Virus record (IMG/VR): IMGVR_UViG_3300037264_001589
Location: 1-22,865 of that record
Reading direction: 5' to 3' (one strand)
Length of the DNA stretch: 22,865 bases
Source: a virus
The notes below the pieces were generated by a model that did not search any database, was not told where the DNA came from, and saw only the letters and a program-made list of their open reading frames with translations. Below are positions 3,422-20,412 of the stretch, piece by piece (position 1 is the first letter of the stretch; the number at the start of each line of letters is the position of its first letter). A program made the translations under genes and the position numbers.

Positions 3422-4872
3422 TAGGGGGCCAGCAATAACGCTTTCGCGCGATCCGCTTCCCGTTGGGTCATATTGCCCTTGCGGACATTGTGCCCAAGAA
3501 TGTGCCCGATCTGCTCCTCTCGCTTCATGGTTTTCATATGCTCAGGCACGGACTGAAGCGCCCTGCGCGTCGCTGCCACCGCTTCGCTGATGACCACCTG
3601 CCGTTCGGCGCCCGCGGGCGTCCCCGCCGCAGGCGTCCCGCCCGGCCCTGGCTGTGGCGAGGGCGCGCCAGTCGCCGGTGGAGGGCCGCCCTGGGGGCCC
3701 CGCCCCATCGACCGCACCTGCATCTCTGCGAGGAGGGGACCGAGCGCGTCCTGGTCGGCGATGAACTGCCGTTGGGCGGCGGCCTTGTCCTCCGACGAGG
3801 TGATGAGCGACGTGATGATGTCCTTATTGGCCGTGATTCGCTTCGCGAGTACGTCGGCCTGTACCTTGAGGTCCTTGTCGTCCACCAGACGCAACTTCTC
3901 TCTGTTCTGGCCCTTGATGGTTTCGAGTTTCCGCTGCTCCTCGCCCCTGACCCGCTCGACCTCGATGTTCCCCTTGGTCTGGGCTCCGATCTTCACCAGA
4001 TCGCGCTGCTGCTGGGCTTCGGACTTCGCCTCCTCCTTCGCGCCCGCCAGCTTCAGTGCCCGATCATCCCTCACGTCCTGCGGCGTCATGGCGTTCCATT
4101 CGGGCATGAAGTCGGGATCGACGCCTTCCCCAGCACGAGACCACACCTCAGACGGCGAGAGCGAGATATTCGCGGCCCCGATCTGGATGTACTGTGTAAA
4201 CGCCTGTTTGAGCGGCTCGGGCATCTGTCGCGCGAGCTTGAACATATTGGTGGTGAGTTGCTTCATCTCTGAGCCCCCAGCGGCCAGCGGGTACCGCGTC
4301 CGCACCTCGCCATAGCCCTGCATCAGAATCGCGGCCCGATCACTCATGGTGCCCGCCTGCCCCGCCTTCTTCTCTGTGTCCCAGATGTGCAGGAGCGCCC
4401 CGTCGAATTGCTTGGCCGTCTCGTCATCCGTTAGACTCCGCTCATACGCCTTGAGCGCGTCCTTCATCTGGGTGCGATCCCCGCCAATCGCGACGCCCTT
4501 GAAGATGTCGAGGCGTGCTTCTTTGGCGTCCGTGTACCCGTGCTCCATCTTGGGTCCCACCACGCGCTGAAAGTATTCCCGTTGGGCATTCTCTCGCGTG
4601 ATCTGGTCCCCGGCCTCCTTCAGCACGAGCGCACGCTGGTCATTGCCGAGGTCCTGCGCCCGCACCTGTCCCGGCTGGAGTTGCGCGGCCATGTCCAACC
4701 GCTGCTGGCTCCGTGCGCCTTCTTCCTCGCCCTGGCGCACTCGCGAGACAGCCGTGTAGGCCCCAATGCCCTGATCCACCATGCCGGCGATGCCTTCGCC
4801 GAGCCGCTTTCCCGGACCTCCCGCGACCGATTCGTAGCCTTGTAACCCTGCCAGAAGACCGGAGCCGGCCAT
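3421..4872 (-). CDS. Helical internal-virion-like protein
   Basis: A 483-residue protein with an ATG at 4872, one base after the stop of the upstream gene. I recognise no named family. It starts with a small-residue segment (MAGSGLLAGLQGYESVAGG), followed by about 300 residues rich in Glu, Lys, Arg, Gln and Ala with long predicted helices. The stretch at about 275-360 looks like a coiled coil. A Pro/Gly-rich linker lies near residues 392-427, before a short helical C-terminus ending ALLLAP. The position between another helical protein and the giant polyvalent-type protein matches the place where podoviruses keep internal core or DNA-ejection proteins, so that role is inferred from order and composition. 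It could equally be a chaperone or another structural protein. Confidence 0.7.
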   Translation of the reverse strand: MAGSGLLAGLQGYESVAGGPGKRLGEGIAGMVDQGIGAYTAVSRVRQGEEEGARSQQRLDMAAQLQPGQVRAQDLGNDQRALVLKEAGDQITRENAQREYFQRVVGPKMEHGYTDAKEARLDIFKGVAIGGDRTQMKDALKAYERSLTDDETAKQFDGALLHIWDTEKKAGQAGTMSDRAAILMQGYGEVRTRYPLAAGGSEMKQLTTNMFKLARQMPEPLKQAFTQYIQIGAANISLSPSEVWSRAGEGVDPDFMPEWNAMTPQDVRDDRALKLAGAKEEAKSEAQQQRDLVKIGAQTKGNIEVERVRGEEQRKLETIKGQNREKLRLVDDKDLKVQADVLAKRITANKDIITSLITSSEDKAAAQRQFIADQDALGPLLAEMQVRSMGRGPQGGPPPATGAPSPQPGPGGTPAAGTPAGAERQVVISEAVAATRRALQSVPEHMKTMKREEQIGHILGHNVRKGNMTQREADRAKALLLAP

Positions 4873-4873
4873 A

Positions 4874-5740
4874 TCAGTTCACTCCTTCATAGGTGCCGCC
4901 AGGCGTCGGGTTCATGCCGGTAGAGGAGGGGCGATAGGCTCGCTGTCCACCCTGACCCGCTCCGTAGAGTGCCCCCGCCCCGCGCATCAGGCTCGACCCA
5001 ATATCCACCAGCCCCCTCGACTTGCCCATGTCAATCCCGTACTGCCGATCCATCATGGCCGTCGCATAGGGGTCTTGCAGACTCGCCCCGAGGAGCCCGG
5101 CGGGCACCCCGCGCAAGAGACCCTGCGCCGAGTTCTGCTCGAATTGCGCGTTCTGTCGCGCGGCATTCGCAATCGCCTCGGCCGCCGACATCTCGCCACG
5201 CCGCAGCGCCGACTCCTGAATGTTCCGGCTCTCCTGCCCACGCTCGATCTGGGTCGCCCCCGCCGTCCCGAGCTTGTAATCGGGCCCCTGCGTCCGCAAC
5301 AGATATTCTGTCCGCTGCGCGTCCTGCTCGTTCAGGCTCCGTGTGGCACCCGGATCAATGTCCAACTCGCCCTTGAGGCCCTTGAGCACCTTCTCGTCGG
5401 CCAGCGCCCGGATCTCCTCCTCGCGCTTCTGGGTCGTCGTGAGCGGCTTCTTCTGGACACCCGTGATCTTGCCATTGGTGTAGACGGGCTCCAGTCCCGC
5501 CGCGTCCAACTGGTACGGCAAGAGCATCTCCGCCATCTCGTAGGCCCGGTCGGCGCGGGCCCGGTCCTCGGCCATGCGGGCGCGCACGGCGGTGGGCACC
5601 TTCCCGCTCGGCTGGCTGAGATAGCCATAGACGGCCGTGCCGATGCCGACGACCGCCATCGCCGCCGCGAAGTAGTGGCGCTCGCCCTGGACATGAATCG
5701 GCACCGGCCCGGCGATGCGATGGCCTCGGACTCTGTTCAT
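4874..5740 (-). CDS. Internal-virion-like protein with N-terminal hydrophobic segment
   Basis: A 288-residue protein. The ATG at 5740 is preceded by AGGGGG about 9 nt upstream, which favours it over the internal Met at residue 28, where no ribosome-binding site is visible. Residues 23-42 form one hydrophobic, Gly/Ala-rich stretch (AAAMAVVGIGTAVYGYL) that could insert in a membrane. The middle (about 45-210) is charged and helical, with many Arg, Glu, Gln and Ala. The C-terminus (about 215-288) is Gly-rich and low in charge. This resembles small internal core proteins of podoviruses (T7 gp14-like position and composition), but no specific family signature is visible. It sits directly downstream of the tail-fibre-like gene and 1 nt before the next helical protein, so the two probably share a function. 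Confidence 0.7.
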   Translation of the reverse strand: MNRVRGHRIAGPVPIHVQGERHYFAAAMAVVGIGTAVYGYLSQPSGKVPTAVRARMAEDRARADRAYEMAEMLLPYQLDAAGLEPVYTNGKITGVQKKPLTTTQKREEEIRALADEKVLKGLKGELDIDPGATRSLNEQDAQRTEYLLRTQGPDYKLGTAGATQIERGQESRNIQESALRRGEMSAAEAIANAARQNAQFEQNSAQGLLRGVPAGLLGASLQDPYATAMMDRQYGIDMGKSRGLVDIGSSLMRGAGALYGAGQGGQRAYRPSSTGMNPTPGGTYEGVN

Positions 5741-5753
5741 GGTCTGTATCCCC

Positions 5754-6977
5754 CTAGTCGGGCCATTGCATCTCCCAGCCAGTCAACACAAAGCCGTTTG
5801 CGAACCCCGTCGATGTGGCGTAGTAGATCGTCGCGCGTGGTGTGCCATAGGTCGGCAGCCGCACGGGCATCCCGGTCGAGAAGTTATTCAAGGCGAAGAT
5901 CGGGGTCAGGAGCGCCGTCGGCGCCCCGGACCATGACTGCCAGTGGAGACCCATGTCGATCTGATTGCCTGGAGAGCTGAGCGTCAACCATGCGGCTCTC
6001 ACAGTGGCCGCCGGGACTTTGCCAACGAGACTTACTGCTGTTGCCGACGTCACCGTCACCCCAGAGACGACGGTGATGGGCACGCTATAAAAGAAGATGT
6101 TGTCTCGCTGGTACCCATCCAGGAACAGTGTAGCCCCATCCGTAGCGAAGGCGCCGAGAAGGCGCTTCTGAGTATAGCCAATCGGCATCGTCGGAGCCGT
6201 TTCGGAGAGTGACAGGAGGCCCGCGAAGGTGTTGGACGACGGGTTGACGATCGCCCACACGTAGTAGAGTGTGCTGGCGCTCAACGTCCCAGTATCGAGG
6301 GCGTTGGCCCCCGTGGTCGTCGCGTCGATGGTGGCCGTAAACGCCGCCTTGATGAATCCGGCCACACTGATCCGATCCGCCGAGAGATCAATTTTCGTGT
6401 TCGGCGTCCCTGGGTTCCTCCGCGCAAGGAAATTGATGGTGATCGCGCTGCCGTAGGACGTGGACGGGCCGGTCAGGGTATTGACGATCCCGTTGGGGTC
6501 CTTGTACGCCAGCACGGTCACACCGAAACCGTCGTCCTTGGCGTAGAGGGAGAGGATATTGGGCCCCGGCGGGGAGGGATCGGCGATCTCGTAGAAGTTC
6601 GTGTAGGTCGCCCCCCAATGCTTCGCGACGTCCTTGGCCAGCGAGTTGTCGATAACCTCGTACCACTGGCTTTTGCCCACGACCGCCTTGAGCTGATACC
6701 GGAGCCGCTCCAGTTCCCCCTGCACCGTGGTCGCCAGGGACTCCGAACTGGCTGGATAGGGGTCCACGACGACCTGCATCTGGCCGACTGAACCGGAATC
6801 CCCGGCCGTGCAGGAGGCGACGTTGGCGGTGACCGTGCGCCCAAAGGCGCCGTTGAGGTCTGCGGATTCTAGGACCTCGTTGAGCGTCCACGTCTTGAAC
6901 ACGCCGCATTGTGCCCATGCCGGCACCGCCCAGAGACACAGCGCCCCCGCGAGTCCGATCCGTGCCCATCGCCCCAT
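5754..6977 (-). CDS. Tail-fibre-like protein with N-terminal signal peptide
   Basis: A 407-residue protein. The first ~23 residues look like a Sec signal peptide: basic MGRWAR, hydrophobic IGLAGALCLWAVP, then AWAQ as a probable cleavage site. Right after it comes WTLNEVLESADLNGAF (30-45), the pattern that commonly opens phage tail-fibre and appendage proteins. ILSLYAKDDGFGVTVLAYKD (about 141-160) and the segment around 220-285 (LDTGTLSASTLYYVWAIVNP, then GLLSLS, TMPIGY, KRLLGAF) are typical of phage fibre shafts and receptor-binding regions. AGGAGG at 6984-6989 sits 6 nt before the ATG at 6977 and decides the start; the ATG at 6992 (overlapping the upstream stop as ATGA) would add five residues. 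The fibre role is well supported. The signal peptide is unexpected for a virion protein. Confidence 0.82.
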   Translation of the reverse strand: MGRWARIGLAGALCLWAVPAWAQCGVFKTWTLNEVLESADLNGAFGRTVTANVASCTAGDSGSVGQMQVVVDPYPASSESLATTVQGELERLRYQLKAVVGKSQWYEVIDNSLAKDVAKHWGATYTNFYEIADPSPPGPNILSLYAKDDGFGVTVLAYKDPNGIVNTLTGPSTSYGSAITINFLARRNPGTPNTKIDLSADRISVAGFIKAAFTATIDATTTGANALDTGTLSASTLYYVWAIVNPSSNTFAGLLSLSETAPTMPIGYTQKRLLGAFATDGATLFLDGYQRDNIFFYSVPITVVSGVTVTSATAVSLVGKVPAATVRAAWLTLSSPGNQIDMGLHWQSWSGAPTALLTPIFALNNFSTGMPVRLPTYGTPRATIYYATSTGFANGFVLTGWEMQWPD

Positions 6978-6983
6978 GCCGAG

Positions 6984-6989
6984 CCTCCT
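6984..6989 (-). promoter_or_regulatory. Ribosome-binding site AGGAGG of the tail-fibre-like gene
   Basis: A perfect AGGAGG on the minus strand lies 6 nt upstream of the ATG at 6977 and overlaps the end of the upstream nozzle-like gene. It selects 6977 over the ATG at 6992 and over much earlier in-frame starts. It also shows that the hydrophobic signal-like stretch is the real N-terminus rather than an internal segment. Confidence 0.8.
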
Positions 6990-9019
6990 CATTTGTTCCC
7001 GAAACTGTAGCCGCCTATGGAAAAGGCGGTCTGGATCTGTGCGATGCGGAAGTAGTTGGGGGAGGACAAGAATCCCCGGTAGCTGATCCGGTGGCCCCGG
7101 CCCCGGAGTCTCCGGGAGACAAAGAGCGACTTGATCGCCCCGAGCGCCTGCTGATCGAGGCGTGACTGATCGAGAATGAACTGGGACCCCTTCCCCTTCA
7201 TGGGGATCGACAACACGGTCGGTTGGAGGACCCCGTCGAGGTAGACCCAGATCGTCAGCGCCCAGTCGCCGACCGACACGCCCTCGACGATGAGAAAGTG
7301 GTAGTTCTTCTGGGATATTTTGTACTCCTCCCCAAGGTGCTGGAAGTTGTCGTCCCAGGTCGTGAACTCGCTCGTGTACGGGACGTCCGCATCGGAGTAG
7401 AGCTTCTGATAGGCGACCTTGATGAGGCCCCCGGAGCCCGCTGCCACCGGCGTCCGCGTCAGATCCGTGTTGATGTGGAGGGCCAGGGCCTCGCACTCCG
7501 GAAACGTCGAGTGGTGGAAGCGGATGCCGACCGCGGGCAGCCGCTTGATGTTCATCTTGATTCGGAGGTTGTTGATCTGAGAGCCGATGCGCGTGAATCC
7601 GCCCCACAGCTCCTCAATCTGATCGAAGTAGATCACCTGACAGAACGGCAACCGGGCTTTGTCCACCTCGTCTCGGATGAATTGCCCATACGTCTCTTCC
7701 GAGATGGACGAGGCGTTGACGTCGCCCAACTGGTAGGCGGCCGTTTTGGACATGCGGTGCCACGAGCCGTCCGGGGCGACAAAGACCACATCATCGTAGA
7801 ACTGGCTCTGATCGGACCCCTGGATGAGGGCCAGCGCCATGGGCCCGACCCCGCCCACGGCGTCGCTGTGCTCATGGACCTGCCACGAGACCGGATCAAT
7901 CTCGGAGCTGTCGATCCGGTAAATGCCGCGCGGGCTCTTGAGCACCCAGCCCTGCGACCGCCAATAGAACCCGGCGCTGATGGCATCCGCCTTGCCGGTG
8001 AAGACCGGGATCGTGATCGGAGATGAGAGGAAGTCTTCGTGGTCCACCCGAGAGGAGACGTAGAGAAAGTGCTTGTTGTTGTTGTTGCCGAAACACGCGA
8101 GGCGACCTTCGAGGATAAACCCGGCCGTGGGCTGGTTGCCCCCCGACCAGTCCCGCGGAGGTCGCGTGATGGTCCGCACGGTGCGCGTGCCGTTGGAGAT
8201 GGGCGCCACGCGATGGGGTGTCGTGCCGTCATTGCCGATCTGCCCATCGGAGAAGGCGTCCGTATAGTCGGCCGTCATGTTGTCAGGGATCGTGTGCAGG
8301 AACAGCGGAGAGGGCGTGATGGTGACCGTCGCCGGATCGTAGGCGATGGTGCGATAGATGCGTCGGTACGTAGTCCCCGGAGGGCCGAACGGAACGGTCA
8401 GGAGCGCCTTGGCCTTATTCCCGTTGGCGATGACGAGGCTCGTCAGGGGCGCTGGGGCGGTCTCCCCTACGAGGCTCCCGAAGACATAGGTATAGTCATG
8501 CTGGCCAACGTTGATGGCCCCGGACACATCTTGGATCACGGCCGTCAGGGGCACGGTCGGGTCGGCCAGTCCCAGCGCAGTCGAAGGATCGCCCGAGAGC
8601 ACCTGCGGGCGACCGCCGCCGAAGAGAAAGAGCTTCTTCGAGTTGCCCGCGATCTCCGCGCCGCCCTCGACCGGCACCATCAGGGCCCCAGGCGTGAGCC
8701 CCGAGACCACCTGCTCGTACACGCGCCCGTCGTCCTGGCTCACCCAGATCGTGCCGTCACGCCCGCACGCGACCATCCGGGAGACGGCGGGATACGGGAA
8801 ATACTGCCGCACCGTGCCGATGACCGGCGCCCCAGGGAGTGGATCGGTAATCATCTGCCGCGTGCCGGGCTCGGTCTCCCAGAGATCGTTCTCCAGCGTG
8901 CAGTTGATGAGATGCTTGACGAAGCTCGGGCCACCCAGATTGACGGCGTTGGGGTTCAGGGTGGCGTACTCCGCCCCCTGGCCGGCGCGTTGCGGAACTA
9001 GCAGTTCCTTGTAGCCCAT
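6989..9019 (-). CDS. Probable tail nozzle / tail tubular B-like protein
   Basis: A 676-residue protein starting at ATG 9019, which overlaps the adaptor stop by 1 nt (TGATG). It is beta-rich, with repeated short strands and WxS, GRV and DGxW segments (for example DGTIWVSQDDGRVYEQV near 88-103 and PDGSWHRMSKTAAYQLGD further on). This suits the beta-propeller proteins that close podovirus tails (T7 gp12 or P22 gp10 type). Residues about 175-258 contain an Ig/Fn3-like module with GPPGTTYRRIYRT and TIPDNMTADYTD. The same module appears in the upstream adaptor-like protein. Length and position directly after the adaptor support a nozzle role, but this is fold-level inference; a stabilisation protein or another tail-hub component is the alternative. 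Confidence 0.7.
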   Translation of the reverse strand: MGYKELLVPQRAGQGAEYATLNPNAVNLGGPSFVKHLINCTLENDLWETEPGTRQMITDPLPGAPVIGTVRQYFPYPAVSRMVACGRDGTIWVSQDDGRVYEQVVSGLTPGALMVPVEGGAEIAGNSKKLFLFGGGRPQVLSGDPSTALGLADPTVPLTAVIQDVSGAINVGQHDYTYVFGSLVGETAPAPLTSLVIANGNKAKALLTVPFGPPGTTYRRIYRTIAYDPATVTITPSPLFLHTIPDNMTADYTDAFSDGQIGNDGTTPHRVAPISNGTRTVRTITRPPRDWSGGNQPTAGFILEGRLACFGNNNNKHFLYVSSRVDHEDFLSSPITIPVFTGKADAISAGFYWRSQGWVLKSPRGIYRIDSSEIDPVSWQVHEHSDAVGGVGPMALALIQGSDQSQFYDDVVFVAPDGSWHRMSKTAAYQLGDVNASSISEETYGQFIRDEVDKARLPFCQVIYFDQIEELWGGFTRIGSQINNLRIKMNIKRLPAVGIRFHHSTFPECEALALHINTDLTRTPVAAGSGGLIKVAYQKLYSDADVPYTSEFTTWDDNFQHLGEEYKISQKNYHFLIVEGVSVGDWALTIWVYLDGVLQPTVLSIPMKGKGSQFILDQSRLDQQALGAIKSLFVSRRLRGRGHRISYRGFLSSPNYFRIAQIQTAFSIGGYSFGNK

Positions 9020-10251
9020 CAGTACGCAGGCTCCTCACGGGTCTGGAAGCGGTTGCCAGACACCCCGAGGAGCTTCTGGTCCTCATCGGAGGCCATCAGG
9101 TCCCGCCCCTCTTTCCACTTGCGCTCCCAGGTGGACGCTCGTGAGTCGTTCTTCATCTCCAGCAGATGAAAGAGCACCCCGTCCGCCAGGAGCCAGCGCC
9201 AGTTGCGCGGCACGAGGATCTCCGACACGCCGAGGGTGAGGGACAGATCCCGCGGTACGATCGTGTGGTATATCTCCACGAAGCCATCCTGGCTCGGGTA
9301 ATGGGAGAACCGGACGCGCGTGTCGTTCACGCGGGCGTATCGGTACGGGGGCCATGTGGGCGTGGGCGGGTCGGGATAGTGCTCCAGGAGCCACGCGACC
9401 GTCATGGGCCCGCCGATCTCTCGGCTGGAGGAGGGGCCCTTGGGTTGCATGGTGATGATCTGGCGCACCCCGCCGGCCGTGTCGAGTTGGGGTGGTCGTT
9501 GCGCCGCCGTGATCGGCCCGGTAGCGTCGGACACGTTGTAGACGTAGGTGGTGGTGATGTTGTCGGCGAGGGTGGCGACGAGGTACAAGATCGAGCCATC
9601 GGCCGCCGTCGCGTAGAGATTCCGATACGTCGTCCCCGGAGGCCCGATGGCGATCTGGCTGATATTGATCCTGAGCAGGGCCCCCCAGATGATGGCCGTC
9701 GCCGGGCCCACCATGTTCTCGCCCGCATCGTTCCCGAACGACACCGCGAAGCTCCGGGTGGTCGGTTCCACAAGGCCCGGCCCGCCGTTGAAGAGAAACG
9801 GTGCCGTGGGCGTCTCCTGGATCGCTGTCAGGTCGTACTCATCCCGGTAGATCGTGACGTCGATAGCACCAAAGGCGGCGATCAGGAAGGGCGCTTCGAG
9901 CGTGACGGTGGCAGAGCCAGGAACATGCGTGACGATGCGGACCCCGTAATTGACCCCCGGCACCCGGATCTTGGAGCCGGTGAGGTTCCTGGCGACTGTG
10001 CCCCCGAGCGTGGCTGTGTAGCCGCTGGCCCACGTCAGCGTGGTCTCCAGCGGCCCATAGAGCCGGAGCATGAGGGGCGTCGCCATACGGGTGAAGAGCC
10101 AGGGGCGGTAGTCGAGGAGTTCCTGATACGCCCGGTCGGCCGCACGAGCCACCAGACCCGAGAACTCGCTGACCCCGAGCCCCGTTTCCTCTTCCGCCCG
10201 ATCAAGGGCGTCGAGCCGTATGAGAGGATACGTGTCATAGGAGCCTGCCAT
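9019..10251 (-). CDS. Probable head-tail adaptor (tail tubular A-like) with Ig/Fn3-like insertion
   Basis: A 410-residue protein. ATG at 10251, with GGAGG a few bases upstream. The N-terminus (about 11-55) is helical with AYQELLDYRPWLFTRMATP, as in the helical cores of podovirus adaptors that dock under the portal. The C-terminus (about 330-410) returns to helix: NWRWLLADGVLFHLLEM, then WERKWKEGRDLMASDEDQK. Such split N- and C-terminal helices flanking a beta region are usual for gp11/gp4-type adaptors. The middle is beta-rich and holds a module at about 165-240 with GPPGTTYRNLY and LVATLADNITTTYVYN, closely resembling one in the nozzle-like protein. It lies directly upstream of the nozzle, in the expected order. 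Assignment rests on architecture and order rather than on a diagnostic motif. Confidence 0.68.
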   Translation of the reverse strand: MAGSYDTYPLIRLDALDRAEEETGLGVSEFSGLVARAADRAYQELLDYRPWLFTRMATPLMLRLYGPLETTLTWASGYTATLGGTVARNLTGSKIRVPGVNYGVRIVTHVPGSATVTLEAPFLIAAFGAIDVTIYRDEYDLTAIQETPTAPFLFNGGPGLVEPTTRSFAVSFGNDAGENMVGPATAIIWGALLRINISQIAIGPPGTTYRNLYATAADGSILYLVATLADNITTTYVYNVSDATGPITAAQRPPQLDTAGGVRQIITMQPKGPSSSREIGGPMTVAWLLEHYPDPPTPTWPPYRYARVNDTRVRFSHYPSQDGFVEIYHTIVPRDLSLTLGVSEILVPRNWRWLLADGVLFHLLEMKNDSRASTWERKWKEGRDLMASDEDQKLLGVSGNRFQTREEPAY

Positions 10252-11406: not shown

Positions 11407-11976
11407 TTACTTGGTGTCGAGAACGTCCGCCATTTGACTGACCAAGCCGGGACCCTGTTCAACCAGACCCTGGCCGGTGGCGACGGTCGTGATGCCGCTC
11501 ATCCGGCCCTTCCGCCGGTCCCGGTAGCGCACGAGCACTTCGAGCGCATCGGGCTCTCCTCGCACTTCGTAGATCGCGGTGCCGTCCCGATCATCCCGGA
11601 GACGGTAAAAGTAGAGGATGTGGTCGAGGTGCTCGCAGGTGACGAACCGCTTGCCGTCCGCCGTCCAGCCATCCCGCCGACGCCGGCCCTTGTTGTCCAC
11701 GGCCGCGAAGTCGTAGTCCGTGTATCCGGAATCCGACTTCCGTTTGTTGAGATGCACGATCTCGACCTGATCCGGGACCGGCTCGTCCTTGTCCAGTCGT
11801 TGCCCCACGGTCTCCATGAGCATCGTGCCCTTGACCCGCTGGGTCTTGTGCGGATGGTTCTGGAGGTAGACGATCCGGACCTCGATAGTCGGGAAACTCT
11901 CGCCCATCGCCTCCGAGGACAACGCCTGCTCGGTGACCAATGCCTTCTCTTCGGATTCTGTCGCCCGCCGTGCCAT
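11407..11976 (-). CDS. Unknown protein in phage late operon (189 aa)
   Basis: ATG 11976 has GAGGAG about 8 nt upstream and starts 2 nt after the O-antigen-ligase-like gene. The first ~30 residues are charged and Ala/Glu-rich (MARRATESEEKALVTEQ). Residues 30-160 form an alternating-strand, strongly charged domain with IEVRIVYLQNHPHKTQRVKG, then a basic run GRRRRDGW, and HILYFYRLRDDRDGTAIYEV. There are no membrane segments and no cysteine cluster (one Cys). I recognise no family. The close spacing suggests co-translation with the ligase-like gene, but a functional link is not shown. Confidence 0.65.
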   Translation of the reverse strand: MARRATESEEKALVTEQALSSEAMGESFPTIEVRIVYLQNHPHKTQRVKGTMLMETVGQRLDKDEPVPDQVEIVHLNKRKSDSGYTDYDFAAVDNKGRRRRDGWTADGKRFVTCEHLDHILYFYRLRDDRDGTAIYEVRGEPDALEVLVRYRDRRKGRMSGITTVATGQGLVEQGPGLVSQMADVLDTK

Positions 11977-11978
11977 GG

Positions 11979-13172
11979 TTAGCTCTCCTCAAGGGCCGCC
12001 TGCAAGCGTCCCGCGGCAAAGAGCGCCACGACGGCTTGCTGCGGCATGTGGAACGTGGGACTGCCCAATGAGTTGACAGCGGCGACGATCGCCACCCCCA
12101 CCCACATGCGATCACGCATCTGCCCGGTGCCCAGCATGACCCTGGCCCCTCGCCCCAACGTCACCACCCACCACCCGACCAGCGCCACGCCAATGAGGCC
12201 GAACTCAAACCAGAGCTGATAGGGCTCGTTGTGCGCCTGCATGGTCGCCGGGGTTGAGCCTGGATGCGTGGCCTGGGCATGGGCGTTCACCATCACCGAC
12301 CAGATCCGCCAGGTGCCAGGCCCATTGCCGACCAGCCAGTGCTTCGTCACGTCCGGCCAGGCATTCGCCCAGACTGCCGTCCGTCCGGATGTCGCCGTCG
12401 AAAGCCACGTGTCCCCATGGCTGTCCGGCCGCTGGATGTGCTGGACGCTCACCGCCAGGACGACCGCGAGCACGGCCACCACCACCCCCAGCCGCATCAC
12501 GCGCGACAGGTCCCGCCACGCCATGACGACGAGCCCGGCCACACCAGACACCACGGGCCCGATGTTCCCCGTGGCAACCGTGCCAGCGAGGAGTCCGAGC
12601 GCCCACCACTTCCCGCACAGCGCGTACACCACCGGGATGCCGAGGGCCAGATACGCGCCCCAGAAGTTCGGATGGGTCAGCCAGCCAAGCGGGCGACCCA
12701 CAAAGCTCGCGAGGATGGTCGGGCTCCCTGGATCGGTCGCCACCCCGAGCCAGTGCAGCGGAGCGGCCAGAACATTCGGACTCGGGTAGACCTGGAGCAG
12801 ATTGAGACCCCCGAGCACCGCCTGGATGCCAATGCCCGCGACCAGTGCCCAGGCGCACCGGATCGCTGCGAGGTCAGACAACGCCGACGCTTCGAGGAAC
12901 AGCACCCCGGCCATGAAGAGCACCACGAGGACCTGAAACCCCCGCATCGGCACACCGGCCCACAGCACATGGGCCAGGGTCCAGACGAGGAGACAGGCCG
13001 CAGGCGGACTGGTACGGCCGACCCGCCACGCAAGCAGCAGGCCGGCCGCCACCAGCACGTAGGCGAGGATGGCGCCGCGCTCGGGCACCACCAGGCCACG
13101 GAATGGCAGGGGCAGGGCGAGGCTCGCCAGGAGCCCCACCCAGACCCACGTCGAGAGCGCCGGACCCCGCAT
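11979..13172 (-). CDS. O-antigen ligase-like (Wzy_C / WaaL superfamily) membrane protein
   Basis: A 397-residue polytopic membrane protein with roughly ten hydrophobic helices, several between residues 8 and 125 and again at 172-245, 322-342 and 356-390. The segment between helices, about 246-320, is the large periplasmic loop expected of the O-antigen ligase / polymerase superfamily. It carries SGRTAVWANAWPD (R264), HWLVGNGPGTW (G282, G284) and HNEPYQLWFEFGLIG (H314), matching the family's conserved Arg, Gly-x-Gly and His-(x)n-Glu-x-Gly-(x)-Gly pattern. THPNFWGAYLALGIP (167-180) is also typical. Such enzymes transfer or join undecaprenyl-linked glycans at the periplasmic face of the inner membrane. 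It is flanked by capsid and tail genes and overlaps its upstream neighbour by 1 nt (TGATG). A phage copy could change host LPS; whether it ligates, polymerises or only blocks the host enzyme cannot be told. Confidence 0.82.
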   Translation of the reverse strand: MRGPALSTWVWVGLLASLALPLPFRGLVVPERGAILAYVLVAAGLLLAWRVGRTSPPAACLLVWTLAHVLWAGVPMRGFQVLVVLFMAGVLFLEASALSDLAAIRCAWALVAGIGIQAVLGGLNLLQVYPSPNVLAAPLHWLGVATDPGSPTILASFVGRPLGWLTHPNFWGAYLALGIPVVYALCGKWWALGLLAGTVATGNIGPVVSGVAGLVVMAWRDLSRVMRLGVVVAVLAVVLAVSVQHIQRPDSHGDTWLSTATSGRTAVWANAWPDVTKHWLVGNGPGTWRIWSVMVNAHAQATHPGSTPATMQAHNEPYQLWFEFGLIGVALVGWWVVTLGRGARVMLGTGQMRDRMWVGVAIVAAVNSLGSPTFHMPQQAVVALFAAGRLQAALEES

Positions 13173-14101
13173 CAGTTCCCGAGGCCGAGTTCTTCGCCGA
13201 CCAGATAGAGGTAGCCCACGCCACAGTTGGCATTACAGTTCTTGTTGTTGGCCGAGCCCATATGATAGACCACGGTCTTGTTGGTCCCATCGCCGACAAA
13301 GGGGAACTGGAAATACGTGCCCGCGTGGACGCTTACCGCGCCAATCGCCCCGTAGGAGAGCAAATGTCCCGAGTGGAAGGAGGCCGCGTAGGCGTCGAGG
13401 TTTTGGGTGATGTCCGCGACGAAGGTTGCGCCGCATCGGAGCCACCCGGCATTGGCCATCGTGATACCGCCCGTAGTGCTATCCGCCACCCTGGCGATGC
13501 CAGCAGCGCAGAAGCCCTTGGGGTCATTCTCAAGAATCCCCGCAACCACGTGCGCGCCCGCCGTCCCGACGGTCGTCACCTCGATGAACGCATCACGGAC
13601 GGCGAACCCCTTGGGGATGGTCACGCCGGTATTGACGTAGGACGTCCCGACGGAGGAAGCCGCCGGTGTCAGCGGAATCTTGATAATTTTGGACGTCATC
13701 TGCTCATCGAGAATCAGCGTCTTGCCGCCGCTACCTGTCGGCGTCATGCCAGACACGCGCGAGCGCGCCCGCTTGCTCCAGGCCACGACATCCACGGAGG
13801 TCACCGAGCGTGCGGTGTAAAACGCGCACGAATTACCGGGCGAGTTGAAGAGTGCCGCGCCCGTGATCGGGTTACTCGCGGCCGTGGTGAGTTGCTGGGT
13901 GGTGTACACGGTGGCGAGCGTGTCCGTGCCGGCCGTGTACACCGCGCAGGTCGCGGCGGCTGTGAGCGGCTGGTTGCGCTCGTCGCGGAGCTGGAACCAC
14001 CAGAAGGTCACGCCCGGTACCGGCTGGGCGGAGACCACCGCAGGGACCAGCGGCAGCGCCACGAACAGTAGCGCCAGAAGGCCCGTCAGGATCTTCGTCA
14101 T
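13172..14101 (-). CDS. Signal-peptide protein resembling head decoration/fibre proteins
   Basis: A 309-residue protein with ATG 14101 and AAGGAG about 11 nt upstream. The N-terminus is a clear Sec-type signal: MTK, hydrophobic ILTGLLALLFVALPLVPAV, then VSAQP with probable cleavage near residue 25. The following ~110 residues (FWWFQLRDERNQPLTAAATC, then VYTTQQLTTAASNPITGAALF and LILDEQ) look like a small beta domain with the 'what-follows-a-default' pattern seen in phage appendage proteins. The second half (about 140-309) contains AFIEVTTVGTAGAHVVAGIL, GFCAAGIARVADSTTGGI and YFQFPFVGDGTNKTVVYHMG, resembling phage capsid-decoration or fibre beta-sandwich domains. It sits just after the major capsid protein. 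The combination of a signal peptide and a decoration-like body is unusual. It may be displayed on the host surface rather than on virions. Confidence 0.68.
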   Translation of the reverse strand: MTKILTGLLALLFVALPLVPAVVSAQPVPGVTFWWFQLRDERNQPLTAAATCAVYTAGTDTLATVYTTQQLTTAASNPITGAALFNSPGNSCAFYTARSVTSVDVVAWSKRARSRVSGMTPTGSGGKTLILDEQMTSKIIKIPLTPAASSVGTSYVNTGVTIPKGFAVRDAFIEVTTVGTAGAHVVAGILENDPKGFCAAGIARVADSTTGGITMANAGWLRCGATFVADITQNLDAYAASFHSGHLLSYGAIGAVSVHAGTYFQFPFVGDGTNKTVVYHMGSANNKNCNANCGVGYLYLVGEELGLGN

Positions 14102-14231: not shown

Positions 14232-15323
14232 CTAGTTGTTAGTCCTGTAGGTGCGAATGGAAATCATCGCGTGGTCCACGGAGTCGAATACCGCCTTCTT
14301 CACCCCGTAGATCGCGCCAATCGCGAATCCTACTTTGTTACCATAGTCGAACTCTTTCTCGACCCACCGTGGCCGCTCGCCCCACGCAAAGGCCCCCGCC
14401 TGCCGGGCGACGAACTGCGCGTTGGCACCCGGCAGGTTGCCGCCGGCACCGTAGGTCGTGCTGACGGCGATGTCCTCGTGGACGTGGCAGATGACGCCGT
14501 CCCAGATCCCGACCGACCCCTCGAAGAGCGGGTTGTCGTCGCCGCGGGTCTGCGCCTCGCGCTGCGCCTGAATCCACGCCGCGTCGAAGGTCTTGAGATC
14601 GGATTCCTGGTCAGGGTGCATGATGAGGACGTAGTATTCCTTGCTGCCGATCTTGACCGGCCAGAGCTTCGGCGCGGCCTTCTTCGCTTTCGTCTTGGCC
14701 TTGGTGATGAGCGCGGTCGTCAGGTAGTCCCCGACGCCGAGGGTGGCGGTCGAGGTCGCCGACCCGCCGTAGACGGAGGTGGACGGCGAGGTGTCGATCG
14801 CCGCGAAGATGTCCGCGTCGATGGTCTCAGCCAACCAGGTCGTCAGGAGTTCCTTCGCCACCATGCGCTGGTTGTACGCGGTGCGGCGCTCGGACATGCG
14901 CCCTATGAGCCGGACAGCGTTGCGCTTCTGGTTGATGGTCACCGAATCGGAGTAGGAGGCGATGGCCTCTTCTGCGGTTTCCATGTCGCCGTCGCCCGTC
15001 ACCCCCGCACCCTGGAGCTTCCGGATGAAGGAGTACGTGACCTTGTCGCCGGGCTGCCCGGTCAACTCGTCTTTGACCTGGATGATGTTGTTCAGGCCCA
15101 TGCCCATGAACTTGTTCCAGTAGATGAGCTTGGGCAATTCCACCCACGACTCGCGACTCCACCGCTTGACCGTCTCGACCGAGCCGGTCGCCCACTCGGA
15201 ATCCGAGCCGCCCGAGATGGGCAGCAGCCCAGCCTTCGCGAGGAAGAATGCCTCCGCCCACGACAGCCCCGCCTCACGCCAGAGAGTGAAGGCGGTGAGA
15301 TACCGCTGGATGTGCTGGATCAT
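14232..15323 (-). CDS. Major capsid protein, N4-gp56 family
   Basis: A 363-residue protein. ATG 15323 is chosen because AAGGAG (15331-15336) stands 7 nt upstream; the frame stays open further upstream but without a site. The sequence carries several hallmarks of the N4-gp56 capsid family: ELPKLIYWNKFMGMGLNN, QPGDKVTYSFIRKLQGAG (about 92-109), YSDSVTINQKRNAVRLIGRM, SERRTAYNQRM, the DADIFAAIDTSP segment, KEYYVLIMHPDQESDLKT and, near the C-terminus, RQAGAFAWGERPRWVEKEFD and YGNKVGFAIGAIYGVKK. Length is normal for the family. The HK97-type fold builds the head shell together with the scaffold encoded just upstream. This is one of the most certain calls in the window. Confidence 0.96.
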   Translation of the reverse strand: MIQHIQRYLTAFTLWREAGLSWAEAFFLAKAGLLPISGGSDSEWATGSVETVKRWSRESWVELPKLIYWNKFMGMGLNNIIQVKDELTGQPGDKVTYSFIRKLQGAGVTGDGDMETAEEAIASYSDSVTINQKRNAVRLIGRMSERRTAYNQRMVAKELLTTWLAETIDADIFAAIDTSPSTSVYGGSATSTATLGVGDYLTTALITKAKTKAKKAAPKLWPVKIGSKEYYVLIMHPDQESDLKTFDAAWIQAQREAQTRGDDNPLFEGSVGIWDGVICHVHEDIAVSTTYGAGGNLPGANAQFVARQAGAFAWGERPRWVEKEFDYGNKVGFAIGAIYGVKKAVFDSVDHAMISIRTYRTNN

Positions 15324-15348
15324 TGCCGTACTCCTTCTGCCGTGCCGC

Positions 15349-16275
15349 TTAGACTCGGCCCCCCGCCAGGTACGCCTCCCGGACGTGCTTGGGCAACGCG
15401 CCATACTCCGACTCGGACATCTTCTCAATATCCGAATCAGACAAGCGGCGCGGCTCACGCCCGGCCGAGGGTGCCAGACGACGGACTCCGCCAAAACGAT
15501 CGGCGGTGGGTCGCATTTCGATGACGGGGCGCACCGAGGTACTGGCGGCCACGTCGGATTGGTGTGTGGGGGTTACAGAGACGCCGCGCTCGTCCAGAAT
15601 CGAGAGCCCGAGCGAGTAGGCGTCTTCCCCTGGGTCTTCCGACATCAGGATGATCTTCTTCCACATCACGGGGTCCTTTGGCTTGCCGGTACTCGGGTCG
15701 ATGGCGATCCCATCGGCCACGCCCGACTGGGTCAGCACGTCGTCGTAATCGACGTACTCCTTGCGGGCGAACTTCTGACTCATGCGGATCACGCCGCGCC
15801 GTGCCGCGATGATGCCGGGCTCCAGCTCGGCGGCGATTTCATTCTTGATAGCCGGGAGGGCCTCGGTGAGATCCTGGGCATCTTCGAGTTTCTTGCGGTT
15901 GTCCGACCGAGTCTGCTCGTGGCGGAGTCGCGTGGCCTCAGCTTCGGCCCGCTCGCTCTTCTCACGCTCCGAGCGTAACTCGTCGCGGAGCCGTTTCCCA
16001 TGCTCGCGTTCGTGCTGGAGGGCGGTGCCGAGATTCTTGGCCTTGGTCGCGTCATCGACCTTGGGCTTCGACTCGTCGGCCGGGAGGACGGCCTCCTTCG
16101 GCACATAGACGACTTCGGGCATCTCCTCGGCCGGCTGTTCCGGCTCAGGATCGGCCTTGGAGTCCGGGAAGATAGGCGTCTCCTCGACACCCTGCTCCTC
16201 GACCTCGTCGCCCAGCACCGCTGTCGCCGACTGTTCGGTCGGCGAGTCTGCTGCTCCGCCCTTCCGCCTTGCCAT
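15349..16275 (-). CDS. Scaffold-like protein
   Basis: A 308-residue charged protein upstream of the major capsid gene. ATG 16275 has AAAGGAG about 10 nt upstream, partly formed by the end of a 31-bp repeat. The first ~75 residues are acidic and Pro/Glu-rich (DPEPEQPAEEMPEVVYVPKE). Residues about 80-150 are a strong coiled-coil candidate (ALQHEREHGKRLRDELRSER, then RAEAEATRLRHEQTRSD). A Gly/Asp-containing middle follows, and a basic C-terminal part ends with LSDSDIEKMSESEYGALP and REAYLAGGRV. This organisation (acidic start, long helix, small basic C-terminal tail) and the position between portal and capsid genes fit a scaffolding protein that is lost during head maturation. Confidence 0.78.
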   Translation of the reverse strand: MARRKGGAADSPTEQSATAVLGDEVEEQGVEETPIFPDSKADPEPEQPAEEMPEVVYVPKEAVLPADESKPKVDDATKAKNLGTALQHEREHGKRLRDELRSEREKSERAEAEATRLRHEQTRSDNRKKLEDAQDLTEALPAIKNEIAAELEPGIIAARRGVIRMSQKFARKEYVDYDDVLTQSGVADGIAIDPSTGKPKDPVMWKKIILMSEDPGEDAYSLGLSILDERGVSVTPTHQSDVAASTSVRPVIEMRPTADRFGGVRRLAPSAGREPRRLSDSDIEKMSESEYGALPKHVREAYLAGGRV

Positions 16276-16357: not shown

Positions 16358-16437
16358 CGGGGTGGTGCCCCCGGCAGTCCCCATCGGGGACCTTCTACTG
16401 AGGGTGGCGCTGTCGCAAGGATCGGGGTCACACCCCG
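16358..16437. terminator. Cluster of three GC-rich hairpins after the portal gene
   Basis: Three short perfect stems follow the portal stop on the minus strand. They are CGGGGT-CAC-ACCCCG at 16423-16437 (its loop overlaps the stop codon), GTCCCC-ATC-GGGGAC at 16377-16391, and CGGGG-TGGTGC-CCCCG at 16358-16373. None is followed by a run of T on the minus strand, so classic intrinsic termination is uncertain. The series is more likely to attenuate, process or protect the mRNA between portal (low need) and scaffold/capsid (high need). The third stem is close to the tandem repeats. Confidence 0.5.
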
Positions 16438-18623
16438 GTGGCGCTGGCCGGCAAGTCCGGCCGCTCCGTGAGCTTCTGCCCGCCGGTGGGGATCTGCCCG
16501 CTTGGATTCTGGACGTTCCCGGCATCCGCGCCCATGGGGTTCTGCGCGTTCCGGGGGTCCTCCTCGTTGAGGGCCTTGTAGGCGAGCGCCACACGGGCCT
16601 CTTCGGGAATATCTTCGCCCTTGAGCGCAATGGACGTCTTGGGCGGTGGCGAGGGCCGGGGCTCGCTCTGGGCCTTGACGAAGCCCTTGATCCGGGCCAC
16701 GACCTTGTCCCGATCCGGAATCCCGTCGGTCATCTCCACGATCACGTCGATCAGGAGCGGGGCGGCAGCCGGGACCTTCTGGATGAGTTCGAGGAGGGTC
16801 GCGAGCGCACCCTGCCGGTGGGTCGGTGAGATCGGCGTCTCCGTCAACTGGATGTCGTAGCGGAGCGTGCTGATGTCGTTCAGGACCTTGCGCCGCAACC
16901 CCGCCGAGGGCATCTCTGAGGCCCCCTCGTTGGTCTCCTTGTTGATGTCGATGAAATCGTACCCGCCGGTCTCCGGGTTGAAGAGGCGAACCACGTCCTC
17001 GTCACTGTACTTTTCCTGGATGCGCCGGGCCATCTTCTTCCAGATCAGCCGCTTGGTGAACCGGAAGTTATCGAACAGCTCGTTATTGCCGATGTTCCCC
17101 TGCTGGACGAGGAGCTTCTTCGCCACACCAGAGATGGCCTGCCCTTCCCCGCCCTGCATCTCTGTGTTGACCATGGAGATCGCCCGGATCTCGTTGACCG
17201 CGGCAGAGAGAATCTCGAAGAGCCCCTGCGGGATGTTTGGCGCCGGCATCCGGCGGGGGTCCTTCTTGTTCGCCTTGACCATGTACACGCCCTTGGGGTC
17301 CCGGCTCTCCCGCTCGAAGGCGTCGAGGTTCGTGAGCGAGTTGTCGTCTGCGAACCACCCATCGCCCGTGGCCTTCGTCAGCCACGATATTTGCGACCGG
17401 CGGGCATTGACCTCATCCTGCGGATCGCGCAGGTTCCGCACGACCCCGTAGACCTCATTGCCCCGCCAGTACGCGAAGAACGGGACGATGGGGTAGCTCT
17501 CCTCGTCCTTGGAGAACGGGATGCCCTCTTCGAGCACATAGTCGATGGCCGGCAGCGAGCAGAGGGCGTGGATCTTCCGATGATACCGCTCGATGAGCTG
17601 CCACGCCGTCGCCCCCTGGGTGCGATCCACCACGGCCTGCATATAGCGTTTCATCTTCACTTCGCTGGTCGAGCTGTAGGTCTTCCTGGCGTCCTTGTCC
17701 GTGAGCAGCCACACCGGGTAGAATTCCGGGTAGTAGACGTCCATCACGCGCACCCGGTTCCGGGTCACGTCAAACCAGAAGTCCATATCGCGCTGGGGGC
17801 TGGAGTAATCGCTCGCCTCGTAGTGGTCCTTGGGGTTGCCTTCCGTCAGGAGGGCCCCCTCCCGGCTCGCGTCCTGGGCGATCGTCTGATGCTTGATCTT
17901 GGACAGGGCCGCGACGATGCCCGCTTTGTGATCCGGGTACTGCGCGACGAGGAGATCCACGTCCACCCAGCGGTGCCGGAACATCCCGCGCACGTCGGAG
18001 AGATCGTACTTGTTCCACGGGGTACACCAGATCCACTCCTCGGGACACTTGACGACGCTGAAATCAATCGTGCCTTTGAGCGGGTCGTCCAGATAGTCGA
18101 TCGGCATCTCAAACCCGCACACGCCCCCGATGCACCCGTCGGCGAACCCCTGCGAGAGGATGTATTCCCCGTTGGCCTCGTCCATCGACTGCTTGAGGAG
18201 CCGCGTGAAGAGTTCCGCCACGTCTACGTCGGCCTTGGTCTTGGGCGCCGCCACCGGATCGTAGCGGTGCATCCGTTCGATGCCGAAGAGCGCGTTACAC
18301 GTCGGCTGGATGTGGTTGATGGTCAGCGTCGGGCGCTGTTTCTCCTTCGCGGCGCTCTTCTGGTTCTCGCTCCACTGGCCCGACCCCGTGTAGTAGCCGA
18401 AGTCGATGGGGATCTGCTCCCGCAGGTCCTTCCAAAACGGCTTGTCCCACTCTTCACGGAAAAGCTGCTTGAAGTACCGGACCCGCTCGTCGCCGCCGCC
18501 GTCCGCGCTCGCGGGTCCCGCCCGCTCCCCTCCGGGGCCCGACCCTGACTGCGAGCGGACCATGGCCGTCTCGCCGAGCGCCTGCTCAACGGACGGTTTG
18601 CGAAGGGGCCGGGCGTCGGCCAC
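16428..18623 (-). CDS. Portal protein, P22-like
   Basis: A 731-residue protein, close to the usual ~725 of P22-type portals. It starts at a GTG (18623), 3 nt after the stop of the preceding gene, with GAGAGGG about 6 nt upstream. Recognisable P22-portal-family segments include FWKDLREQIPIDFGYYTGSGQW (positions about 63-84, written here in parts: FWKDLREQIPIDF and YYTGSGQW), RPTLTINHIQPTCNALFGIE, AELFTRLLKQSMDEANGEYI, ILSQGFADGCIGGVCGFEM, WIWCTPWNKYDLSD and, later, VRNLRDPQDEVNARRSQIS. The dodecameric portal sits at the capsid vertex, works with terminase during packaging and later docks the adaptor. The last ~100 residues are Pro-rich and probably flexible. Family assignment is firm. Confidence 0.93.
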   Translation of the reverse strand: MADARPLRKPSVEQALGETAMVRSQSGSGPGGERAGPASADGGGDERVRYFKQLFREEWDKPFWKDLREQIPIDFGYYTGSGQWSENQKSAAKEKQRPTLTINHIQPTCNALFGIERMHRYDPVAAPKTKADVDVAELFTRLLKQSMDEANGEYILSQGFADGCIGGVCGFEMPIDYLDDPLKGTIDFSVVKCPEEWIWCTPWNKYDLSDVRGMFRHRWVDVDLLVAQYPDHKAGIVAALSKIKHQTIAQDASREGALLTEGNPKDHYEASDYSSPQRDMDFWFDVTRNRVRVMDVYYPEFYPVWLLTDKDARKTYSSTSEVKMKRYMQAVVDRTQGATAWQLIERYHRKIHALCSLPAIDYVLEEGIPFSKDEESYPIVPFFAYWRGNEVYGVVRNLRDPQDEVNARRSQISWLTKATGDGWFADDNSLTNLDAFERESRDPKGVYMVKANKKDPRRMPAPNIPQGLFEILSAAVNEIRAISMVNTEMQGGEGQAISGVAKKLLVQQGNIGNNELFDNFRFTKRLIWKKMARRIQEKYSDEDVVRLFNPETGGYDFIDINKETNEGASEMPSAGLRRKVLNDISTLRYDIQLTETPISPTHRQGALATLLELIQKVPAAAPLLIDVIVEMTDGIPDRDKVVARIKGFVKAQSEPRPSPPPKTSIALKGEDIPEEARVALAYKALNEEDPRNAQNPMGADAGNVQNPSGQIPTGGQKLTERPDLPASATGV

Positions 18624-18954: not shown

Positions 18955-20412
18955 TTAGCTGACCATCCACGCCCGCGCGGCGTCAGCCAGTGGTCGTGAG
19001 CGGTCGTATTTCGGGCCCCGAGGCCGCTCAACGAGTTTGGGGATCGGGAAATGGACGCCCATGCCGTAGCCCCAGGCGTCGCCGTGTTCCGAGTGCTCAT
19101 CCTTGACGATGTCCCCGATATTGCCCGACGGCGTCTTCTTCCGATGCCAGCCGCCGTTCAGGGCACGGATCATGGCCGTCGCCTCCGGATCGACCTGCAC
19201 CGTTGGCTGACCGCCCTTGAGCGTCTTTTCAAGTTTGGCCCGGATGGGTCCCACGCGATCCGGGATGGGGATCGGCCCGCCCTCGAAGCTCGCAGGCTTC
19301 TTCGGGGTCGAGGTCAGCATCTCCTCAATCGCGGTCACGGCCGAGACCTCGTTGTTTCGGGCCTCCGGCGTGAGCCCGTTCGGGTCGCCGATGTCCTGGA
19401 ACGTGAAATCGGTGATCCGCTTCCGCCCCTGCCAGGGCAGCACGTTCTGCTCGATGTGCTGCTGACACCCCAGGTTGGCGCCACGGATGGACATGAAGAC
19501 ATTGATCCGGCCGAGCGGCGTGATCTGCCACCACACGGTCGTCGGGTTCAGCCCGAAGTCCCAGGATCGCTGCACCGGCACGCTGCGGAGGATCGGCAAC
19601 TCGACAGCAGACCGATGGACGTCTCCGAACTCCGGCGTGACCCCCACGCCCAACTGAATGTACCCGACCTTGCCTTCCACGAGGCGAGCGATCAGGTCGA
19701 AGCGTCCCATGGCTTCGAGAATGGCTTTGTTGTGCATCCGGTACTCAGTCGTGACGCCAGGGTTCTCGCCCTTCGGGATCTCGAAGAACTTGACGGTGTA
19801 CCCGTAGAACTTGAGGCGCTCGATGGTGTCCAGATTGTCCCGGTACTTGATCGTCCAGTGCTCCTGGTCCGGCGGGTTCATCGTGATCTGGACCCGTGGC
19901 TTGACGCCGGCCGCGCCGCCCTGGCGCAACGACGTCACGGCGAGGAGCGCGTCTTCCGGGATGCCGGAGGAGATGTCGGCGGCCGGGGCGGGTTCCTCGA
20001 TCCACGCGCCAGCGCCCTCAAACCCCTGCAAGCGGTTGGCATCGTCCGGCGTGTCCAGACCGAAGAAGTTCATCTCGACGACGGGCCGGAAGAACCCCAT
20101 GGTGGTCCGCATCCCGATCTTGACGACCTTCGGCTCCAGGCGATCGAGGCCCTCGTTGGGCAGCCCGTACTCCCGGCACGCGCGCCGGATGGACTCGATG
20201 GTCGTAATCCGCAGATTTTCCCACGTATCCCGGATGACCGCCCAGCGGATCGGCCATTGACTGGACGGTTGGCGAAGGGCGTGCGCGATCGTGGCGAACA
20301 GGCCGGTCGTCGTCTTGCCCTCGCCACGGGGCCCCATCAGAAAGATCATATTCTCCTGGGCCTCGATGAACGCCCGCTGCGTCGGCGTAGCCGGGAAGGT
20401 GATCTCAGGCAC
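18955..20412 (-). CDS. terL: Terminase large subunit
   Basis: A 485-residue protein starting at GTG 20412, overlapping the preceding gene by 8 nt, with GGAGG 6 nt upstream. Walker A is GPRGEGKT at 27-34. The acidic Walker B region is GAGAWIEE at 133-140, and QITMNPP near 175-181 fits the coupling motif. The RNase-H-like nuclease domain shows three acidic positions: D285 in SWDFGLNP, D340/D343 in FQDIGDPNG, and D445 in SEHGDAWGYG. It packages DNA into the prohead through the portal, cutting with the nuclease domain. All motifs look intact and the length is standard. The packaging mode (cos or headful) cannot be decided without phylogenetic comparison. Confidence 0.96.
   Translation of the reverse strand: MPEITFPATPTQRAFIEAQENMIFLMGPRGEGKTTTGLFATIAHALRQPSSQWPIRWAVIRDTWENLRITTIESIRRACREYGLPNEGLDRLEPKVVKIGMRTTMGFFRPVVEMNFFGLDTPDDANRLQGFEGAGAWIEEPAPAADISSGIPEDALLAVTSLRQGGAAGVKPRVQITMNPPDQEHWTIKYRDNLDTIERLKFYGYTVKFFEIPKGENPGVTTEYRMHNKAILEAMGRFDLIARLVEGKVGYIQLGVGVTPEFGDVHRSAVELPILRSVPVQRSWDFGLNPTTVWWQITPLGRINVFMSIRGANLGCQQHIEQNVLPWQGRKRITDFTFQDIGDPNGLTPEARNNEVSAVTAIEEMLTSTPKKPASFEGGPIPIPDRVGPIRAKLEKTLKGGQPTVQVDPEATAMIRALNGGWHRKKTPSGNIGDIVKDEHSEHGDAWGYGMGVHFPIPKLVERPRGPKYDRSRPLADAARAWMVS

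Follow-up and report, generated by a model that had tools for sequence, protein, structure and literature searches.

By its sequence, the gene at positions 11979-13172 on the minus strand of the window (the whole stretch of DNA analysed here, an IMG/VR virus contig of 22,865 bases) is a member of the Wzy_C superfamily, and comparison with related phages indicates that, far from being a stray conversion gene, it belongs to a conserved cassette of two genes. We favour, at slightly below an even chance, the reading that it encodes a dedicated O-oligosaccharyltransferase whose acceptor would be the exported protein encoded by its upstream neighbour. This reading is founded on the Wzy_C family membership of the enzyme, its conservation, its fixed pairing with the exported gene, and the glycan-synthesis genes present in relatives. 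The family, topology, motifs and location described in the initial annotation hold; the roles that it proposed, namely a change of O-antigen chain length, decoration of the envelope or exclusion of sibling phages, presuppose LPS or the envelope as acceptor, and it did not mention the exported partner.

A Wzy_C-superfamily gene in the late module of a podovirus

The minus strand of the window is the late module of a Bcep22/P22-like podovirus. From high to low coordinates, we recognised a terminase large subunit (18955-20412; phrog_2, E = 6.1e-14), a P22-like portal protein (16428-18623; Pfam P22_portal, 7.7e-100), the major capsid protein or MCP (14232-15494; Phage_capsid_3, 5.9e-43; phrog_334, 9.1e-70), the 309-aa partner protein predicted to be exported (13172-14101), the Wzy_C protein, a conserved 189-aa protein directly downstream of it (11407-11976), an SU10-type adaptor (9019-10251; Pfam SU10_adaptor, 3.6e-6), and a second late protein predicted to be exported, 412 aa long and tail-fibre-like (5754-6992). 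The MCP open reading frame reaches 15494, and its homologues begin near 15323-15338 in the corresponding alignment (A5). In L003, the terminase open reading frame (2-1807) was seen by eye to contain an apparent intein-like insertion, CVDMKTEMLTCRGWKTATDLSVGE ... NGHVFITGNSEHG.

The placement of the gene between the capsid region and the adaptor, as first annotated, is thus borne out by Pfam matches to the flanking MCP, portal and SU10-type adaptor. The overlaps of 1-2 nt described for both neighbours are correct upstream, where the genes share 1 nt (TGATG at 13172), but the downstream junction is a 2-nt gap (TAA-CC-ATG). The record is a single metagenomic contig of 22.9 kb, as an assembly chimera joining bacterial and phage DNA or a chance match might also be; however, the same gene order recurs in independent contigs of up to 92 kb from several samples, and because of this recurrence we regard such an origin as excluded for all practical purposes. 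Homologues of the 189-aa protein, which had no Pfam or PHROG match, lie downstream of the Wzy_C gene in L011/L001, L016, L021, L022 and L024 (25-74% identity by blastp), and a similar open reading frame occurs in L018.

The 397-aa product, a predicted integral membrane glycan transferase, matched Pfam Wzy_C (PF04932) with an E-value of 1.5e-11 and 44.8 bits, above the curated cut-off of 31.7, so that the profile search bears out the assignment to the Wzy_C/WaaL superfamily; a Wzy_C match was also obtained for 11 of 11 aligned relatives. Searches of the window protein against PHROG and NCBIfam returned no match. Alternating loop charges, together with the helices in an AF2 model (pLDDT 74.6, pTM 0.78), fit about 12 transmembrane segments with both termini inside, and they place R264, R289 and H314 in a predicted periplasmic loop (residues 247-315), in agreement with the WaaL-like topology initially proposed. 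A Foldseek search of this model against PDB and BFVD gave nothing at an E-value of 0.001.

The Arg, Gly-x-Gly and His motifs noted at the outset are present and invariant in the 11 relatives, as S-G-R264-x3-W, G282-x-G284-x-G286, Q-A-H314-N-E and LTH167-x-N169, with the exception that, of three residues conserved in WaaL and PglL, the Arg of the R215/R224 slot (WaaL/PglL numbering) has given way to Gly-Pro in the main clade. Invariant positions in the 11 aligned members include R32, R77, H167, N169, R227, H245, R264, R289, H314, N315, E316 and E323. Between the window gene and its counterpart in G001 (62.7 kb, the closest long relative of the window), dN/dS is 0.21, in the same range as in neighbouring structural genes, which indicates that the gene is under purifying selection. 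Since its codon-position GC also resembles that of its neighbours, it appears to be functional and long resident, and on these same features we rejected recent capture from a host.

Contigs of uncultured viruses yielded relatives with 32-73% identity, together with the more divergent L109 and G059, the latter weak by Pfam (0.0035) and clear with the phage profile (4e-21). Counting near-identical contigs once, 14 distinct uncultured phages carry a member of the family. The gene lies in the capsid module in 13 of them and elsewhere in G059; it is near the partner gene in all, and, unlike WaaL, in an LPS biosynthesis locus in none. When several members were compared by tblastn with 50,697 phage records, no match was obtained, and a peptide-pattern search through 84,980 genomes of bacteria and archaea gave no confirmed relative of either the enzyme or the MCP.

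Comparison with known ligases and oligosaccharyltransferases

Enzymes of the Wzy_C superfamily use glycan donors linked to undecaprenyl pyrophosphate and differ in the acceptor, which is a glycan for Wzy, lipid A-core for WaaL and a protein for the O-oligosaccharyltransferases. Simple sequence comparison cannot separate WaaL from PglL and other O-oligosaccharyltransferases; diagnostic residues have been listed, and PglL genes often adjoin the gene of their target (Schulz et al., PMC3643930). TfpO and TfpM are devoid of the PglL_A and Wzy_C_2 domains, and TfpO, TfpM and PglS are often encoded beside a dedicated substrate (review PMC12645811).

Using the published reference residues (PMC3643930), R264 is the equivalent of WaaL R288 and PglL R298, and H314, within QAHNE, that of WaaL H338 and PglL H349; both are invariant in the 11 aligned members and in L109 and G059, and H314 aligned with the corresponding His of an oligosaccharyltransferase in the PDB. 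The slot of WaaL R215 and PglL R224 is occupied by G205-P206 in the window and the main clade, and by Arg only in L109 and G059. In an alignment limited to a distant oligosaccharyltransferase, PglL N180, G316 and G318 correspond to N169, G282 and G284, and PglL Q178 to H167. Wzy_C was the sole domain found in the 11 members, with no Wzy_C_2 detected and no match to PglL_A (PF15864) at an E-value of 0.1. The NCBIfam model of the TfpM O-oligosaccharyltransferase (NF058641) was matched weakly by 3 of the 11, at best with E = 0.003 and hence below normal significance, and not by the window protein; WaaL models of NCBIfam were matched by none of the 11. In the PDB profile library, which includes WaaL (7TPG), the best match was instead a 610-aa oligosaccharyltransferase (9rmk; E = 0.028, below normal significance), and hhalign with a single E. 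coli WaaL sequence was not significant and is uninformative. Because of these residues, the presence of Wzy_C alone, and the weak profile matches to O-oligosaccharyltransferases and not to WaaL, we prefer a protein acceptor over LPS.

The phage enzyme resembles each known group in part. With E. coli WaaL (7TPG) it shares the Wzy_C domain, a length of about 400 aa, the predicted 12 transmembrane helices and the R288 and H338 equivalents, but it differs in the replaced R215 equivalent of the main clade, its non-LPS locus, its exported partner and the lack of a significant pairwise profile match. With PglL and PglS it shares, in the main clade, the equivalents of Arg298 and His349, tentatively those of Asn180, Gly316 and Gly318, and the weak 9rmk match, whereas the Gln178 slot holds His, the Arg224 slot Gly-Pro (main clade), and PglL_A was undetected, for which reason we rejected PglL proper. 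The likeness to TfpO/PilO and TfpM lies in Wzy_C without PglL_A or Wzy_C_2 and in the adjoining gene for one exported protein (PMC12645811, PMC3643930); these enzymes, however, modify a type IV pilin on a C-terminal Ser/Thr, whereas the phage partner is decoration-like and encoded in a capsid operon, and the phage activity is a prediction. We therefore also rejected filing the enzyme as TfpO/TfpM, the partner being no pilin and having no C-terminal Ser/Thr.

A conserved cassette with a predicted exported protein

In all 14 distinct phages, a gene for an exported protein lies closely upstream of the Wzy_C gene. The partners share 19-68% identity with that of the window in our alignment (A4), and a Sec signal peptide, usually ending in AQ, was predicted at 14 of 14 loci (MTKILTGLLALLFVALPLVPAVVSAQ in the window). 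A search with the partner alone recovered the very divergent L109, in which a Wzy_C gene (5.9e-12) lies directly downstream. Among relatives with an MCP at least 48% identical, every contig long enough to hold the pair has it at the capsid locus, except L127 and L128, where both cassette genes are absent from this locus. In G059, the genome to which L128 belongs, both genes are found together about 60 kb from the capsid locus, 2.2 kb apart, and an MCP tree nests L127 and L128 within the pair-carrying clade. Such joint loss or relocation of both genes is as expected of a functional unit. Variations in the arrangement were also observed: a methyltransferase-like gene stands between the partner and the Wzy_C gene in L018 (9304-9966) and L022 (9303-9953; Methyltransf_23, 3.2e-4, under the cut-off), and L020 has a second partner copy downstream of the Wzy_C gene (3308-4177).

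The arrangement with an exported partner would, by analogy, fit dedicated protein O-oligosaccharyltransferases better than WaaL or Wzy, and this genomic context points away from the LPS or envelope acceptor assumed in LPS-based roles. The fixed pairing suggests that these phages glycosylate a protein of their own in the bacterial periplasm, though gene pairing can also stem from shared inheritance. At most, enzyme and exported acceptor would be organised in the manner of TfpO or TfpM and their pilins.

The partner itself had no significant Pfam or PHROG match. Its middle part resembles a tailspike head-binding domain and its C-terminal domain a decoration or cement protein, the A4 profile giving weak PDB matches to the head-binding domain 7eeq (E = 0.07) and the phage cement protein gp16 (7dou; E = 0.14). 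In a sister phage group, with an MCP about 40% identical, a 152-aa protein with no signal peptide is encoded upstream of the MCP at a distance of 13 nt; its match to A4 covers the C-terminal half (1e-6 to 1e-8 in a small set; 2.5e-6 to 6e-4 when all open reading frames were searched). One protein of this 152-aa type weakly matched phrog_8455, a virion structural protein (E = 0.004), which is the family of BcepMigl gp52, annotated as virion-associated and encoded directly after the MCP; a direct hhalign comparison of the partner with the single gp52 sequence was not significant and is uninformative. The AF2 model of the partner is weak (pLDDT 67.6, pTM 0.49), which makes its PDB matches to viral jelly rolls unusable. 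Each of these homology links is weak alone, and together they indicate that the partner probably carries a decoration-type domain. It resembles capsid cement and decoration proteins (the gp52 family phrog_8455; gp16, 7dou) in this probable C-terminal domain and in its site next to the MCP, and differs from them in its Sec signal peptide and additional N-terminal domain. The partner is not a pilin by profile, and the C-terminal Ser/Thr of the TfpO/TfpM sequon is missing from each of the 13 partner sequences in the alignment.

Glycan-synthesis genes and other exported proteins in related phages

NeuB-type nonulosonate synthases were identified in G007, G010, G012 and G057, and GT1 glycosyltransferases in the same four phages. 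NeuB was absent from five other cassette phages searched alongside, from the eight relatives without the cassette in that comparison, and from each of ten MCP relatives, of which G059 carries the cassette. Among contigs of at least about 60 kb, NeuB is present in 4 of 7 cassette phages vs 0 of 9 others (Fisher p = 0.019). By Pfam, G012 also encodes a Polysacc_synt_2-type dehydratase, a DegT aminotransferase and an acetyltransferase. Nonulosonate-type clusters span 19453-35413 in G012 (L085, L086) and 1904-6904 in G007 (L076), with 2-3 NeuB homologues, a Polysacc_synt_2 dehydratase, a GNAT acetyltransferase and a possible cytidylyltransferase, and with DegT in G012; these contents were assigned by Pfam in G012 and by similarity of reading in G007.

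On the late-gene strand of the 73.7-kb G057 contig (L120, 2433-18315) there is a near-complete lipid-linked glycan gene set. It encodes an initiating phosphoglycosyltransferase (7.7e-40), glycosyltransferases of the WecG (3.6e-41) and GT1 types and an epimerase, and its NeuB gene is followed by that of a 576-aa ABC exporter. Judging from these matches, the set is likely a lipid-linked glycan pathway, in which the exporter could be the flippase; Wzx (PF01943) was not found in any genome searched. G001 gave no NeuB or GT1 match and would rely on host glycan.

Of 64 late genes examined in cassette phages, 17 were predicted to begin with a Sec signal peptide, vs 0 of 121 in relatives without the cassette, counts for which independence is overstated since the phages are related. 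They were obtained with a strict heuristic; a relaxed version gave false positives, the Wzy_C protein included. A single genome may have as many as five late proteins with such a signal, and L127, a contig fragment, has exported late proteins and no cassette at its capsid locus. In the window, the signal peptide of the protein at 5754-6992 ends in AWAQ and is followed by CGVFKTW...LNGAF, and related exported proteins occur in the late regions of G001, G004, G007, G009, G010 and G012. Sec signal peptides on large tail-fibre-like proteins of this type, with their CGVFKTW...LTxxxLNxxF pattern, lack an explanation, given that tailed phages are put together in the cytoplasm. The third exported late protein of the window (21135-22256) had no Pfam match; by eye it has a nucleophile-like GMSGG motif and resembles a secreted esterase or depolymerase.

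Alternative explanations

The main alternative, which we consider possible but somewhat doubtful, is that the protein is an O-antigen ligase or polymerase of the WaaL or Wzy type, which late in infection would transfer a phage or host glycan onto host LPS and keep sibling phages off infected cells or debris, the exported neighbour being a separate surface or virion protein. Wzy_C is common to WaaL, Wzy and O-oligosaccharyltransferases, the length, 12-helix topology and freedom from extra domains are WaaL-like, and the glycan-synthesis genes of the four relatives would serve this role as well. There is also phage precedent, as phage epsilon15 encodes a Wzy-beta with a Wzy_C domain for seroconversion and phage D3 has a Wzy-beta too (PMC4815439). 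These phage-encoded glycan polymerases are lysogenic conversion genes, however, whereas the new family is conserved within the capsid block and tied to an exported protein of virion-like character. Against LPS as acceptor stand the invariable pairing and joint relocation with the decoration-like protein, the failure to recognise a Wzz- or Iap-like partner or a Wzx, and the outcome of the WaaL comparisons in NCBIfam, PDB and hhalign.

A different target in the periplasm, such as several of the other exported late proteins, might also receive the glycan, with the partner acting as a chaperone, tether or surface lectin. The signal-peptide counts agree with this, subject to the relatedness of the phages compared, but one exported family alone is tied to the enzyme in every genome, and the L127 fragment combines exported late proteins with the lack of a cassette at its capsid locus; we rate such a role for the partner as improbable. 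Still less credible, and in our view very improbable, is a Wzy_C-derived membrane protein that has lost glycan transfer and serves as a structural superinfection-exclusion factor. The Gly-Pro in the Arg215/Arg224 slot of the main clade would fit inactivity, but five residues, R264, H314, N315, E316 and E323, do not vary among 11 proteins with identities as low as about 32%, dN/dS is low and glycan-synthesis genes co-occur.

Proposed mechanism and significance

The course of events that we infer for a dedicated O-oligosaccharyltransferase, with regard to catalysis, donor, acceptor, and the site and role of the product, builds on the predicted membrane topology and export signals. Late in infection, the enzyme would reside in the inner membrane of the host, its active site turned toward the periplasm, and the partner, with its C-terminal half akin to a capsid-decoration protein, would be exported through Sec by its predicted signal. 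Ser/Thr residues of the partner would then receive, en bloc, a glycan that the enzyme draws from an undecaprenyl-pyrophosphate donor, following the O-oligosaccharyltransferase logic of TfpO or TfpM with an adjacent pilin. Phages like that of the window would use the lipid-linked glycan of the host, whereas larger relatives would bring nonulosonate synthases and glycosyltransferases, and one of them also a phosphoglycosyltransferase and an ABC exporter. The resulting glycoprotein may coat virions at lysis, or else the surface of the infected cell.

Tailed-phage virions are assembled in the cytoplasm, and the route by which a periplasmic protein would reach cytoplasmic capsids before lysis is unexplained and counts against the partner as acceptor; we considered mechanisms for this and found no evidence for any of them. 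Also against the favoured reading are the Gly-Pro of the main clade, the undetected PglL_A and Wzy_C_2, the missing C-terminal Ser/Thr of the partner, the low significance of the TfpM and 9rmk matches, the fold search, and the lack of Wzx in any genome and of NeuB and GT1 in G001. Taken together with cytoplasmic assembly, the conserved link of a periplasmic glycan transferase to an exported protein with a probable capsid-decoration domain suggests a step not yet described, in which a phage protein would be glycosylated outside the cytoplasm. A more far-reaching version, which we regard as rather unlikely, is a phage clade with its own periplasmic en bloc protein glycosylation, comprising the Wzy_C enzyme, an exported decoration-type virion acceptor, a lipid-linked pathway in the larger members, and a sialic-acid-like virion coat.

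A cassette of Wzy_C and exported decoration-like genes in a phage capsid operon was not described in the open-licence literature that we searched. Capsid glycosylation has been proposed for mycobacteriophages such as Maravista, where phage-encoded glycosyltransferases would likewise modify a virion protein; those systems consist of glycosyltransferases, and the paper describes no en bloc transferase of the membrane paired with an exported protein (PMC11256854). The phage cassette would represent something categorically new should its partner protein receive a glycan in the periplasm and then become part of the virion. If the favoured reading is true, it would show how phages could obtain virions coated with glycan or shield the cell surface late in infection, and provide a new set of O-oligosaccharyltransferases for glycoengineering. 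The cassette also makes testable the question of why a whole phage clade puts Sec signal peptides on its late proteins.
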